Positions 1,437 to 53,004 of a DNA stretch of 64,000 bases are shown in pieces (position 1 is the stretch's first letter; each line of letters begins with the position of its first letter). The DNA comes from Verrucomicrobium sp. GAS474 (lineage in GTDB: Bacteria > Verrucomicrobiota > Verrucomicrobiia > Methylacidiphilales > GAS474). The position numbers were made by a program, and so were the translations under genes. The stretch covers positions 1,736,001 through 1,800,000 of the forward strand of contig NZ_LT629781.1 in assembly GCF_900105685.1 (NCBI RefSeq), in the 5' to 3' direction. Below the pieces are notes generated by a model that did no database searches, was not told where the DNA came from, and saw nothing but the letters and a program-made list of their open reading frames with translations.

Positions 1437-1733
1437 TTCCAAGCGTATCGCTTCCCTGGATGCCGCGGGAGCGGGGCAGCCCTTCGGGGCTGGCGCGGTC
1501 AACCCTGTACAGCTGGAGGCGACCCGCTTTATAGCCACAGAGGGGCTTCGCCCCTCCGTGACCTCCCCTTCGGAGGGCCTGAACTAGGCGGACGCGCTTT
1601 GGCGGCGCCTCGTCTCCGAACTGGATTAAAATCGGCTGCTTCCTGGAACGCCCGAGGGTACGAACTGAAGGGGTGGCGGTACCAATACGCCTAGACTCCT
1701 ATCGGAAGAGAAGCGTATGGGAGAGGGAGCGCT
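1437..1733 (+). repeat. Interspersed repeat, solo arm R1 (forward)
   Basis: This fills the convergent gap between the chemoreceptor and hpnG and holds no convincing gene. It is a copy of the roughly 250-bp repeat found eight times in the window. Recognisable parts in order: a CCTGTACAGCTGGAGGCG core near 1504, a GAGGGGCTTCGCCCCTC hairpin near 1540, AGGCGGACGCGCTTTGGCGG near 1586, a TGGATTAAAAT block near 1622, and a 3' end with ACTCCTATCGG near 1695 and AAGCGTATGGGA near 1711. It uses the CCACAGAGG variant in its first block and the other variant in the later blocks, so it is a mosaic. Confidence 0.85.
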
Positions 1734-4675: not shown

Positions 4676-4935
4676 GGAGCGGGGGTGCCCGTTGGGGCTT
4701 GCGCGGTCAACCCTGTACAGCTGGAGGCGATCCGCTTTATAGCCCAAGAGGGGCTTTGCCCCTCCTGGAACCTCCCCTTCGGAGGGCCTTAGCTAGGCGG
4801 ACGCGCTTTGGCGGCGCCTCGTCTCCTCACTGGATTAAAATCCGCTGCTTCCCGAGCGTCCGAGGGTACGTACTGAAGGGGGAGCGGTACCCATACGCCC
4901 TGACTCCTATCGGGAGAGAAGCGTATGGGAGAGAG
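4676..4935 (+). repeat. Interspersed repeat, solo arm R2 (forward)
   Basis: Near-consensus copy of the 250-bp repeat, located upstream of shc. It runs from GGGGCTTGCGCGGTCAACCC near 4695 through the TGTACAGCTGG core, the AGAGGGGCTTTGCCCCTCC hairpin, GCTAGGCGGACGCGCTTTGG and TGGATTAAAATCCGCTGC to ACTCCTATCGGGAGAGAAGC near 4905. All four diagnostic blocks are of the 'a' type (tatagcccaagagg, ggcggcgcc, ggattaaaat, acgtactgaagg). No open frame in it has coding character. Confidence 0.88.
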
Positions 4936-5185
4936 GTCTTCAGGGGTTCAGCAGCGAGGAGATAGGACTGCATCCTTGGATGCTCCTTCCCATGGCTCGG
5001 CCCTTAAGGAGGTTAGATCCAGCGGAGTAGAGTGCGCGTATGAGATTAGCCTCTTGGATTGCGCCTCATCCACACCACGGCCTATCAGAGGGGCGGCGCA
5101 GCCTCTCTTGCATCTCTAAACGCGCGTCCGGCCTCCAGCTGCACAGGGAAATGTACCCGGTCCCGAAGGGCTGCCCTCTTCGCGA
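4936..5185. repeat. Gap after R2 ending in a decayed repeat fragment (R9, reverse)
   Basis: About 190 bp (4936-5127) show no gene or clear structure to my eye. Bases from about 5128 to 5182 (GCCTCCAGCTGCACAGGG followed by GGTCCCGAAGGGCTGCCC) match the 5' end of the 250-bp repeat in reverse orientation, with substitutions in the core (CTGCACAGG instead of CTGTACAGG). Together with forward arm R2 this may be the remains of a second type of arm pairing. Confidence 0.6.
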
Positions 5186-8718: not shown

Positions 8719-8814
8719 AGGGGGGGAGGGACGAGAATGGGAGAAAAGGACCGAGTTTTCAAGAATTTACACCGCGACGCCAGTTCCGCCAGCACTGGGA
8801 CTGATGATTTCCCC

Positions 8815-9070
8815 CAAGCGTTCCTCTCCCGATAGGAGTCTGGGCGTATGGGTACTGCTTCCCCTTCAGTACGTACCCTCGGGCGTACTGGAACCATCCG
8901 ATTTTAATCCAGTGAGGAGACGAGGCGCAGGGGGAAACGCGTCCGCCTAGCTAAGGCCCTCAGAAGGGGAGGTTCCAGGAGGGGCAAAGCCCCTCTTGGG
9001 CTATAAAGCGGGTCGCCTCCAGCTGTACAGGATCGACCGCGCCAGCCCCGAAGGGCCGCCCCGCTCCCAA
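8815..9070 (-). repeat. Interspersed repeat, solo arm R3 (reverse)
   Basis: Reverse-orientation copy of the 250-bp repeat between nifS-like and glycosyltransferase genes. Left end TCTCCCGATAGGAGTC near 8828, right end TCCAGCTGTACAGGATCGAC near 9018. It is a mosaic: the hairpin block and the 3' block are 'a' type, but the middle carries the 'b' variant (GGCGCAGGGGGAAACGCGTC near 8924). It shares with R8 a private block (GGAACCATCCGATTTT near 8890). The remaining 96 bp up to the nifS-like start hold nothing I recognise. Confidence 0.87.
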
Positions 9071-14656: not shown

Positions 14657-16291
14657 ATGAAAAACTCGGATTGGACGATTGGTAAGCGGATTCTCGTCGG
14701 CTGCGCACTCTTGATTCTGATTAATACCGTGGTCGGCATCTTCAGCTGCATCAGTATTTCAAAGTTGAAGAGCCATACGGAAAGCATCGTGACGAACTGG
14801 ATCCCGGGCATCAACGACGCGGGAGCGATCAACGCCGAAATCCGGACGCTGAATCGGTTGATCCTTCAGCATATTTTGGCCGATACCCCCGAAGCCAAGG
14901 CGAAGGTCGAGACGACCTTCAAGACCCAGCTGGAACTGGTCGACAAGCTGGTGAAGGATTACGGCCAGTCGATCGATCCCGAGGAAAGGGAACTCTATGC
15001 CGCGATGACGCGCACGGTCGCCGCCTATATCGCCCAGGCGAAGGTCGTCGAGGGCCTGAGCGCGGCGGGGCAGGCCAAGGAGGCGCACGAGACCTTCGAC
15101 CAGCAGATCGTGCCGCTCTACGCCGCCGCCCGCGATGCCGTCGTCGCCGAGAACAAATACAATCAGAAGGGCGCCGACGTCGAGGGGGCCGAGACCACCT
15201 CGCTGGCGAAGTTTGCCTTTGCCGCCGTCGCCTCCAGCGTGGTGATCGCCTTCGTCGTCGGGCTGCTGACCGCCTTCCTCAATATCCGGAGCATCACGAC
15301 GGCCCTGAACGCCGTTTCCAGCTCGATCAACGACGGTTCGGCCCAGGTCGCCTCGGCGGCGGGCCAGGTTTCCTCCAACAGCCAGTCCCTGGCCGACGGG
15401 GCGAGCGAGCAGGCCGCCTCCCTGGAGGAGACGAGCGCTTCCCTGGAGGAGATCAGCAGCATGACGCAGCGCAACGCCGAGAGCGCCCAGAGCGCCCAGG
15501 CCCTTTCCGGCCAGGCCCGCGCGGCGGCGGAGACCGGCGCCCTCCGCACCGGGGAGATGCAGCAGGAGATGGCCGCGATCCGGCAGGCCAGCGACGAGAT
15601 GGGCGCGGCCATCGCCGACATCCGCGCCTCCGGCAACAACGTCTCGAAGATCATCAAGACGATCGACGAGATCGCGTTCCAGACGAACATCCTGGCGCTG
15701 AACGCCGCCGTCGAGGCGGCCCGCGCCGGGGAAGCCGGGGCCGGATTCGCCGTGGTGGCCGAGGAGGTCCGTTCCCTCGCCCAGCGGAGCGCCGACGCGG
15801 CCAAGGAGACAGCCCAGATGATCGAGGCCTCGGTGGCCCAGAGCGCCCGGGGCGTCGAGGTGAACCAGCGGGTCGCGGTCCGCGTCGCCAGCATCGCGGA
15901 GAAATCGGCGGGCGTCCGCGTCAGCCTCGACGAGATCGTGACGAAGGTCCGCGAGGTCGACGCGCTGGTGAGCTCGATCGCCTCGGCCTCGAAGGAGCAG
16001 ACGGAAGGGATCGGCCAGGTGACCAAGGCGGTTTCGGCCATGGACAAGGTGACCCAGAGCAACGCCGCCGGGGCCGAGGAGACGGCGAGCGCGGCCCAGC
16101 AGCTCGACACCCAGTCCCAGGAGTTGAGCGCCGCCGTCGATATCCTCGCCCGGTTGGTCAACGGGAGCGGCGGGCAGGCTCCTTCGCCGGCGTCGGCGCG
16201 AATCGCCCCGTCTGCCCCGCGCGCCCGGGTCACGGCCAGCCGGACCGCCCTCCAGGGGTCTTCCCGCGACAACGCCTTTCGGAACATGTAA
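14657..16291 (+). CDS. Transmembrane methyl-accepting chemotaxis protein (four-helix-bundle sensor)
   Basis: Inner-membrane chemoreceptor. TM1 is about residues 12-32 ([19 protein letters not shown]), followed by a helical periplasmic region of about 140 residues that looks like a 4HB_MCP sensor, and TM2 is about 183-205. No clear HAMP domain is seen; the signalling domain begins soon after TM2. The hairpin [17 protein letters not shown] is intact, flanked by [18 protein letters not shown] and [17 protein letters not shown], both methylation-type helices. The start is placed at ATG 14657 just before the TM1 region; upstream in-frame ATGs at 14609-14633 would add a polar extension. cheW follows 32 bp later, so the pair probably forms one unit. 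Confidence 0.93.
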
Positions 16292-20406: not shown

Positions 20407-20664
20407 CCATACGTTTCTCTCCCGATAGGAGTCAGGGCGTATTGGCCCCGTCTCTCCCTATCGCTCGTACCCTCGGGCGCTCAGGGAAGCAGCGGATTTT
20501 AAAACAGTTAAGAGACAAGGCGCCGCCGAAGCGCGTCCGCCAAGTTCAGGCCCTCCGAGGGGGAGGTTCGAGGAGGGGCGAAGCCCCTCTTGGGCTATAA
20601 AGCGGGTCGCCTCCAGCTGTACAGGGTTGACCGCGCAGGTCCCGAAGGGCTGCCCCGCTCCGTG
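20407..20664 (-). repeat. Interspersed repeat, arm R4 (reverse) of composite element 1
   Basis: Left arm of a composite inverted-repeat structure in the convergent gap between fba and def. It reads CTCTCCCGATAGGAGTCAGG near 20417 to TCCAGCTGTACAGGGTTGAC near 20612. Blocks: hairpin and middle of 'a' type (ggcgccgccgaagcgcg), but the 'b' type for TTTTAAAACAG and the CCCTATCGCTCG end. With R5 it forms arms of about 250 bp that could pair over their whole length in single-stranded DNA or RNA. Confidence 0.88.
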
Positions 20665-20790
20665 GTGTTACCCAGCGTGGGTCTCCTAGGCGATCCGTGT
20701 CCCATACACCTCATCTTTCAAGCGCTCCTCTCCCATACGCTTCGTTTTCCATGCGCTTGGCAAACGGAACGTTTGGAAGACAACGCGCAC
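20665..20790. repeat. Centre of composite element 1
   Basis: Roughly 125 bp between the facing arms R4 and R5. It contains one diverged copy of the 47-bp unit that is triplicated in the second composite (here CCGTGTCCCATACACCTCAT... CAAGCGCTCCTCTCC), then CATGCGCTTGGCAAACGGAA with CGTTTGGAAGACAA. The last part matches the centre of the second element almost base for base. No reading frame in it looks coding, and I see no transposase fragment. Confidence 0.75.
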
Positions 20791-21057
20791 GGGGAAAGGG
20801 ATCGCGGAACGGGAACCGCCCTTCGGGACCTGCGCGGTCAACCCTGTACAGCTGGAGGCGACCCGCTTTAACGCCACAGAGGGGCTCCGCCCCTCCGTGA
20901 CCTCCCCCTCTGAGGGCCTGAACTAGGCGGACGCGTTTCCCCCTGTGCCTCGTCTCCGAACTGTTTTAAAATCCGCTGCTTCCCGGAGCGTCCGAGGGTG
21001 CGAGCTATAGGGAGAGACGGGGCCAATACGCCCAGACTCCTATTGGGAGCGAGGCGC
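20791..21057 (+). repeat. Interspersed repeat, arm R5 (forward) of composite element 1
   Basis: Right arm of composite 1, from GGGGAAAGGGATCGCGGAAC near 20791 to ACTCCTATTGGGAGCGAGGC near 21038; it ends at the stop codon of the peptide deformylase gene. All diagnostic blocks are the 'b' type (CGCCACAGAGG, GCGTTTCCCCCTG, CTGTTTTAAAAT, GAGCTATAGGGAGAGACGG). Confidence 0.88.
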
Positions 21058-27114: not shown

Positions 27115-27370
27115 GTGATTCTCCCGATGGGAGTCAGGGCGTATTGGCCCCGTCTCTCCCTATCGCTCGTATCCTCGGGCGCTCCAGGAAGCAGCGGATT
27201 TTAAAACAGTTAGGAGATGAGGCGCAGGGGGAAACGCGTCCGCCTAGTTGAGGCCCTCAGAACAGGAGGTCACGGAGGGGCGGAGCCCCTCTGTGGCGTT
27301 AAAGCGGGTTACATCCAGCTGTACAGGGTCGACCGCGCAGGTCCCGAAGGGCTACCCCGCTCGGTGGCGT
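27115..27370 (-). repeat. Interspersed repeat, arm R6 (reverse) of composite element 2
   Basis: Left arm of the second composite, starting 5 bp after the prenyl synthetase stop: CTCCCGATGGGAGTCAGGGC at 27121 to TCCAGCTGTACAGGGTCGAC near 27314. All diagnostic blocks are 'b' type, like R5. The second small hairpin is altered (CTGTTCTGAGGG in forward sense), which matches the sequence bordering the insertion in R8. Confidence 0.88.
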
Positions 27371-27570
27371 TATCCAGCGTGGGTCTTCCCAGGCGCTCCG
27401 TGTCCCATACGCCTTATCTCTCAAGCGTTCCTCTCCCAGGCGCTCCGTATCCCATACGCCTTATCTCCCAAGCGTTCCTCTCCCATGCGCTCCGTGTCTC
27501 ATACGCCTTATCTCCCAAGCGCCCCTCTCCCATGCGCTTGGCAAACGGAACGCTTGGAAGACAAGGCGCA
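27371..27570. repeat. Centre of composite element 2 with three 47-bp tandem units
   Basis: Between facing arms R6 and R7. Three head-to-tail 47-bp units occupy 27390-27436, 27437-27483 and 27484-27530; each starts CA(G/T)GCGCTCCGT and ends CCTCTCC, with a few substitutions. They are followed by CATGCGCTTGGCAAACGGAA and CGCTTGGAAGACAAGGCGCA, homologous to the centre of composite 1, which has only one unit. The difference in unit number accounts for most of the length difference between the two elements. Confidence 0.85.
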
Positions 27571-27850
27571 CGGGGAAAGGGATCGCGGAACGGGAACCGC
27601 CCTTCGGGACTTGCGCGGTCAACCCTGTCCAGCTGGAGGCGATCCGCTTTATAGCCCAAGAGGGGCTTCGCCCCTCCTCGAACCTCCCCTTCGGAGGGCT
27701 TTGGTTAGGCGGACGCGCTTGGGCGGCGCCTCGTCTCTTAACTGGATAAAAATCCGCTGCTTCCCTGAGCGCCCGAGGGTGCGAGCGATAGGGAGAGACA
27801 GGGCCAATACGCCCCGACTCCTATTGGGAGAGAAGCGTATGGGAGAGGAA
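27571..27850 (+). repeat. Interspersed repeat, arm R7 (forward) of composite element 2
   Basis: Right arm of composite 2, from GGGGAAAGGGATCGCGGAAC to ACTCCTATTGGGAGAGAAGC near 27820. Blocks one to three are 'a' type, the fourth (GAGCGATAGGGAGAGACAGG) is 'b' type. It ends about 60 bp before the sigma factor start, so the sigma gene's promoter lies in or next to the repeat. Confidence 0.88.
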
Positions 27851-30210: not shown

Positions 30211-30545
30211 AGGAAAGGGATCGCGGATTGGGGAGTGCCCTTCGGGGCTGGCGCGGTCGACCCTGTACAGCTGGAGGCGATCCGCTTTATAGCCCAAGAG
30301 GGGCTTCGCCCCTCCTGGAACTTGTCTCCCGACCCTGCAAGTTAGTTTCCCCTTTACGAGGTATTGCGCTATCGCGCAGGCAGTCCTGTTCTGAGGGCCT
30401 TAGCTAGGCGGACGCGCTTTGGCGGCGCCTCGTCTCCTCACTGGATTAAAATCGGATGGTTCCGGTACGCTCGAGGGTACGTACTGAAGGGGTAGACGGT
30501 ACCAATACGCCTAGACTCCTATTGGGAGAGGTGCGCTTGGGAGGA
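30211..30545 (+). repeat. Interspersed repeat, solo arm R8 (forward) with a 69-bp insert
   Basis: Copy of the 250-bp repeat in the convergent gap between the HtrA-like gene and alr. From GGAAAGGGATCGCGGATTGG near 30212 to ACTCCTATTGGGAGAGGTGC. Between CCTCCTGGAAC and CTGAGGGCC lie about 69 extra bases (30322-30390) that no other copy has. All four diagnostic blocks are 'a' type and it shares the GGATGGTTCC.GTACGC block with R3. The gap from 30169 to 30210 carries a duplicated piece of the preceding gene's 3' end. No gene is seen in the interval. Confidence 0.87.
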
Positions 30546-52831: not shown

Positions 52832-52912
52832 TTGGGGCCGAAGGGCGGGTTCCCCGGGGCCGTCCCCAGAACCGCCCTTGCAATTTCGGGGTGATCCCGT
52901 AATTTGATAAAG

Positions 52913-53004
52913 CCAAGAGCGGCAGAGCGCCGGCAGGGTAACCCCGCCAGGTCCGAAAGGAAGCAACGGTAACTTGACCGTCGTTGTTGCCGCTCTTGGT
53001 TTTT
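52913..53004 (+). ncRNA. ffs: Signal recognition particle RNA, small (4.5S) type
   Basis: The closing stem is CCAAGAGCGGCA with its partner TGCCGCTCTTGG at about 52989-53000. The diagnostic domain IV is intact: GGTAACCCCGCCAGGTC, then CGAAAGGAAGCAACGGTAAC with the GAAA-type tetraloop and the asymmetric bulge that binds Ffh. The 3' stem runs into TTTTTT, which acts as terminator. The RNA is about 90 nt with no Alu domain. It lies directly upstream of dnaX, a classic bacterial order. Confidence 0.95.

Follow-up and report, generated by a model that had tools for sequence, protein, structure and literature searches.

A REP/BIME-like family of ~240-bp hairpin-rich intergenic repeats in Verrucomicrobium sp. 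GAS474

Inverted arms and composite elements in the window

The window analyzed here is a stretch of 64,000 nucleotides from Verrucomicrobium sp. GAS474, a cultured soil bacterium with a closed genome in a single contig of 3,763,444 bp. It contains two composite elements, each with a pair of inverted arms around a centre, along with further arms of the same repeat family:

1475-1709, minus strand: R1, a single class-A arm with convergent neighbours (family profile, gene calls)
4684-4917, minus strand: R2, the class-A member of a type B pair, in which outer ends face each other (family profile)
4982-5175, plus strand: the diverged class-C2 partner arm of R2 (family profile)
8825-9060, plus strand: R3, a single class-A arm (family profile)
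20418-20654, plus strand: left (L-type) arm of element 1, class A, equal to R4 (nhmmer, family profile 2-238)
20655-20814, no strand: centre of element 1, homologous across eight aligned composites
20815-21049, minus strand: right (R-type) arm of element 1, class A, equal to R5 (nhmmer, family profile 3-237)
27120-27356, plus strand: left arm of element 2 (family profile and composite alignment)
27357-27595, no strand: centre of element 2, with extra 47-bp tandem units (repeat finding, D7 family, and composite alignment)
27596-27831, minus strand: right arm of element 2 (family profile and composite alignment; site empty in the congeneric genome G002)
30234-30529, minus strand: R8, a class-A arm with an internal insert of ~60 nt (ACTGCC...GGGAGACAAG) (family profile)

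In element 1 the inner ends of the arms face each other, and the centre is made up of a shared left inner flank, tandem 'CTCCCAWRCGC' units and a shared right inner flank. The inverted arms that a preliminary description had placed at 20407-21057 are real: in addition to the profile matches, repeat finding recovers two inverted stretches without gaps within this interval, 106 nt at 91% complementarity and 91 nt at 89%. The spacer between them measures ~160 bp instead of the ~125 bp given earlier, and the centre, then called unique, has homologs in all eight aligned composites. A second element of like architecture with a homologous centre had also been proposed and is indeed present at 27120-27831; repeat finding yields cross-matches of 244-260 nt at 88-92% between the two elements, with the centre of element 2 being the longer one. 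Across the composites, centre length varies by tandem units of ~47 bp. R1, R2, R3 and R8 had been listed as solo arms; R1 and R3 are single, but R2 is paired with the previously missed arm at 4982-5175, the two forming a ~500-bp unit that is seen at 14 other places.

The ~60-nt insert of R8 recurs in seven other long copies, making eight in total. This module within the arm has the form ACTGCC-hairpin ... AGGGGAAACTAACTKGCAGGG ... GGGAGRCAAG, and its sites are window 30234-30529 and genome positions 185626, 317061, 579457, 1873047, 2145731, 2161542 and 3672100. A module akin to it is also seen within the loop of the main hairpin, resembling a separate, nested repeat. Another small repeat (CGCTTCGGTTCCGCCAGCACTCGGACGCGTGATT) borders the outer flanks of many arms in both orientations, for instance at window 8770-8820, and short 'CTCTCCCATACGC' units, the same that make up the tandem centre, likewise border arms. 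Elsewhere in the window, 15333-16178 has many paralogous DNA matches in GAS474 and its congeners, corresponding to a large paralogous gene family; 152-853 holds two direct-repeat pairs, 363-366 bp apart and 73-77% identical, within the ORF 86-1426; and 52911-53004 (plus strand) encodes the bacterial small SRP RNA (Rfam RF00169, 56.7 bits).

Family size, arm structure and placement relative to genes

An iterative profile search, covering 411 kb collected around hits, detected at least 161 arm hits, which group into 118 intergenic clusters and amount to 0.93% of the genome. These copy numbers are drawn from the best candidates and are lower bounds, since a covariance model of the core adds about ten further places. 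Class A accounts for 108 hits above 150 bits, with a unit of ~236-238 bp, and 37 hits at 60-150 bits belong mostly to diverged classes. The inner-end 20-mer, with up to two mismatches allowed, has 119 genomic matches against none for its reversed control, and for the outer-end 16-mer the counts are 92 and none, which excludes chance as the origin of the arms; these whole-genome counts are of a similar order of magnitude to the profile count. The clusters comprise 83 single arms, 27 doubles and eight triples (35 multi-arm clusters), with inner ends facing each other in the eight aligned copies and outer ends facing in ~20 clusters. About one quarter of the chromosome, from 2.32 to 3.35 Mb, is nearly devoid of the family, with one cluster per 0.25 Mb where other regions have 7-17. 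The GAS474 genome announcement (PMC5786674) makes no mention of the repeat, and an exact 25-mer of the arm has no match in the genome_contigs collection. Carriage by plasmids, phages or viruses was considered and rejected, as the repeat has no match in the respective collections.

Each arm consists of short hairpins strung together over ~240 bp. In 32 diverse core sequences, 92.7% of the positions in consensus helices form standard pairs, compared with 88.2% in shuffled alignments (none of 500 as high), and the covariation score of 0.238 is likewise reached by none of 500 shuffles (0.178). Five helix pairs in this set are changed on both sides, and every pairing measure drops when the helix partners are slid against each other. 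The conserved core thus appears to display compensatory pairing, although the shuffles ignore kinship among copies and so offer support rather than proof. In a test of strand by exceptions to standard pairing, 57 GU stand against 10 AC, an asymmetry that comes mostly from one pair. A known RNA gene, which the preliminary description had named among the findings that would overturn its reading, can be dismissed, as no Rfam family matches at the gathering score and the sub-threshold matches near element 1 lie far below the cut-off.

To place the clusters relative to genes, we used approximate gene calls, made with an in-house finder that relies on codon usage and was seeded with genes confirmed by Pfam, rather than the annotation. 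By these calls, none of the 118 clusters falls inside a gene; 50 have convergent neighbours, 59 tandem and nine divergent ones. The gene pairs without a copy number 13, 156 and 21, respectively, which corresponds to a tenfold odds ratio for convergent pairs (Fisher p=1e-13). Between tandem genes, 56 of 59 clusters are closer to the 3' end of the upstream gene, at a median distance of 25 nt against 139 nt. The inner terminus, a G-run followed by CGCG, often directly abuts the stop codon: GGG immediately follows the stop in 58 of 155 neighbours compared with 6 of 79 controls, and the stop is TAG in 59 of 83 compared with 31 of 79. In the GTAG-tag test TAG plus a G-run was frequent at the inner end, with TAA and TGA occurring too. 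A TA or CTAG target duplication, suggested by TA at both ends, found no support, as the TA stems from the stop codons and is missing at ends that do not adjoin a stop. In a hand tally of single arms between tandem genes, 18 point the same way as the upstream gene and 23 the opposite way, a near-random split that lends no weight to an RNA role tied to one strand.

These observations bear on the proposal that the arms are structured non-coding RNA genes or SINE-like retroelements, with a plus-strand RNA that is both functional and mobile. The compensatory changes with plus-strand G-U intermediates, the optional insert modules at defined hairpins and the variable inner ends would fit such elements. 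However, along with the near-random orientation and the lack of an Rfam match, no reverse transcriptase (PF00078, RVT_1) was found in GAS474 or two congeners, which rules out a retroelement with a resident enzyme and renders the proposal very improbable.

Mosaicism and comparison with related genomes

Linkage between variable sites of class-A copies falls from an r2 of 0.33 at less than 10 bp to 0.03 beyond 80 bp, and all four combinations are found in 1708 of the 1769 biallelic site pairs. Because of this decay and the near-ubiquity of the four combinations, class-A copies are regarded as mosaics of each other; recurrent mutation may contribute to the signal. Among 91 full copies the pairwise identity averages 85.5% and peaks at 96.6%, values which argue against a very recent burst.

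The preliminary description had suggested looking for empty sites in related strains. In the congeneric metagenome-assembled genome (MAG) G002, the sites of element 2, R2 and R3 are empty with their flanking genes kept, the element 2 site measuring 771 bp in GAS474 against 31 bp in G002. At the R1 site G002 carries, with matching position and orientation, an arm from a different subfamily; hence homologous copies at the same sites elsewhere, held earlier to speak against a mobile unit, do occur at this one position, while the other three are vacant. G002 contains at least 58 diverged copies of the core, many of them at contig ends, and the core is absent at E<=1e-4 from the congener G001 and from 59 other genomes of the order. 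The outgroup is thin, consisting of this one MAG with copies and one congener without.

It has to be considered whether the family is immobile now, an old set of repeats in which only homologous recombination and gene conversion still shuffle sequence and copies come and go through deletion. The pairwise identities of class-A copies, which show no very recent burst, and their strong mosaicism are in line with this. Set against it are the three empty sites with retained flanking genes: their loss in G002 would be less parsimonious, with the copy-free G001 as the sole outgroup. We regard present immobility as improbable.

Mobilization and the likely nature of the family

The enzyme search took in the Y1, IS110 and RVT_1 families. 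The Y1/RAYT domain (PF01797) has no match in GAS474, E. coli and others being positive as controls, and IS110 (PF02371) is also absent; consequently, RAYT or IS200 mobilization from within the genome and an IS110 bridge-RNA element were both ruled out. G002 has two RAYT-like Y1 transposases of 151 aa (L202 and L203, on contigs C392 and C251), which have short inverted repeats of their own on either side that bear no relation to the arm; no linkage of these genes to arms was observed. No gene was called inside any copy in the 118 clusters, in agreement with the earlier claim that the element lacks a transposase gene. The family is not an insertion sequence, as it encodes no transposase. A transposase lying between nearby inverted arms was also sought, and the intervals examined contain either ordinary genes or ORFs that match nothing in Pfam; for example, the 739-bp interval at 207.4-208.2 kb encodes what we take, from its translation, to be the ribosome recycling factor. 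No recurrent terminus pair was found, and the longest word shared between flanks averages 6.98 compared with 6.72 in mismatched controls, a marginal shift in a test for target-site duplication that is weak on account of the ragged ends.

This evidence allows an evaluation of the foldback transposon or MITE model, under which the two-arm composite is the mobile form, moved by a transposase in trans, and single arms are its remnants. The left arm, centre and right arm are conserved in the eight aligned composites, and element 2 is an insertion relative to G002. Against this, the 83 single-arm clusters and ~20 type B pairs far outnumber the composites, the type B pairs have the opposite polarity, the flank words are barely longer than in controls, and GAS474 has neither a Y1 nor an IS110 transposase. 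Hence, of the mobile or recombining unit originally proposed, the multicopy nature and the lineage-specific insertion stand, but a discrete foldback element leaving solo arms as remnants does not agree with the predominance of single clusters, the opposite-polarity pairs and the failure to detect a recurrent terminus pair or target-site duplication; we consider this model unlikely. MITEs and foldback elements do resemble the family in being non-coding, with inverted ends and an inner tandem array, and a MITE with an internal minisatellite is described from Porphyromonas gingivalis (PMC4596501). The GAS474 family differs from them in showing no clear sign of short inverted repeats at its termini together with a target duplication, and in having arms that occur alone and in both pair polarities.

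The closest likeness is to REP and BIME repeats, which the preliminary description had excluded. Like these, the GAS474 family is extragenic, hairpin-forming and present in high copy, often in inverted pairs and with a mosaic arrangement, and is found mostly in convergent or tandem gene gaps, within ~20 bp of 3' ends, with termini abutting stops. Published REPs are placed convergently, less than 20 bp from 3' ends, and have termini able to supply TAG stops, all of which agrees with the placement of our clusters; they include GTAG and CGTC families, and Opitutus terrae is a verrucomicrobial example (PMC3733652). Stop-proximal REPs are reported to lower translation (PMC12306157). The differences are that an arm of ~240 bp with several hairpins, about 6-10 times the REP length, replaces one palindrome of 20-40 bp, that the genome has no RAYT, that the inner terminus is a G-run plus CGCG, and that composites hold a 47-bp tandem array. 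As the family departs from REPs in unit size and in lacking a cognate RAYT, while sharing the 3'-end placement, hairpins, inverted pairs and mosaics, we file it as a REP/BIME-like variant and not as a REP family. REPINs consist of two inverted units around a spacer and form a dispersed, non-autonomous population; the GAS474 composites are likewise two inverted units around a spacer, but in this family both pair polarities exist. REPINs are doublets of REPs that go with a RAYT (PMC3116915), whereas the GAS474 arms are ~10 times longer and the genome has no RAYT. The pneumococcal BOX and RUP repeats are comparable as small interspersed intergenic families of a bacterial chromosome, and they differ in sequence, host and composite arrangements (PMC3049150).

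Taken together, we favour the view that element 1 is probably one arrangement of a lineage-specific, non-autonomous mosaic repeat family that works like an oversized REP/BIME. Its unit is the ~240-bp chain of small hairpins set just behind stop codons, a position from which the arms would be transcribed into mRNA 3' ends; either orientation would serve, as both strands allow the hairpins to form. Such arms could form a structural obstacle there, protecting or terminating transcripts and keeping convergent genes apart, and the repeat would have depended for its spread on an activity from outside the element. A further possibility, which we hold to be rather doubtful, is a new non-autonomous mobile class: a ~240-nt multi-hairpin module with an optional insert module, which would integrate directly behind stops, exchange very short tracts and depend on an enzyme outside the RAYT, IS110-type recombinase and reverse-transcriptase groups. 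REP-type repeats are usually attributed to RAYT transposases acting on hairpins of 20-40 bp. A RAYT-less family of some 160 or more copies, with a unit several times that length, in the stop-codon niche suggests that this niche of mRNA 3' ends and convergent genes collects unrelated repeats, or that there is another mobilizing activity. As GAS474 is cultured and its genome closed, transcription and termination at arm sites are directly testable.

The oversized REP/BIME view would also allow inverted copies to recombine and thereby rearrange the chromosome. The block from def (deformylase) to a trypsin-like protease is inverted relative to G001, with both breakpoints at places that in GAS474 hold element 1 and R8; at the places read in G002, neither adjacency of the inversion is present. 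Both ends of an inversion that separates congeneric genomes are marked by copies of the family.
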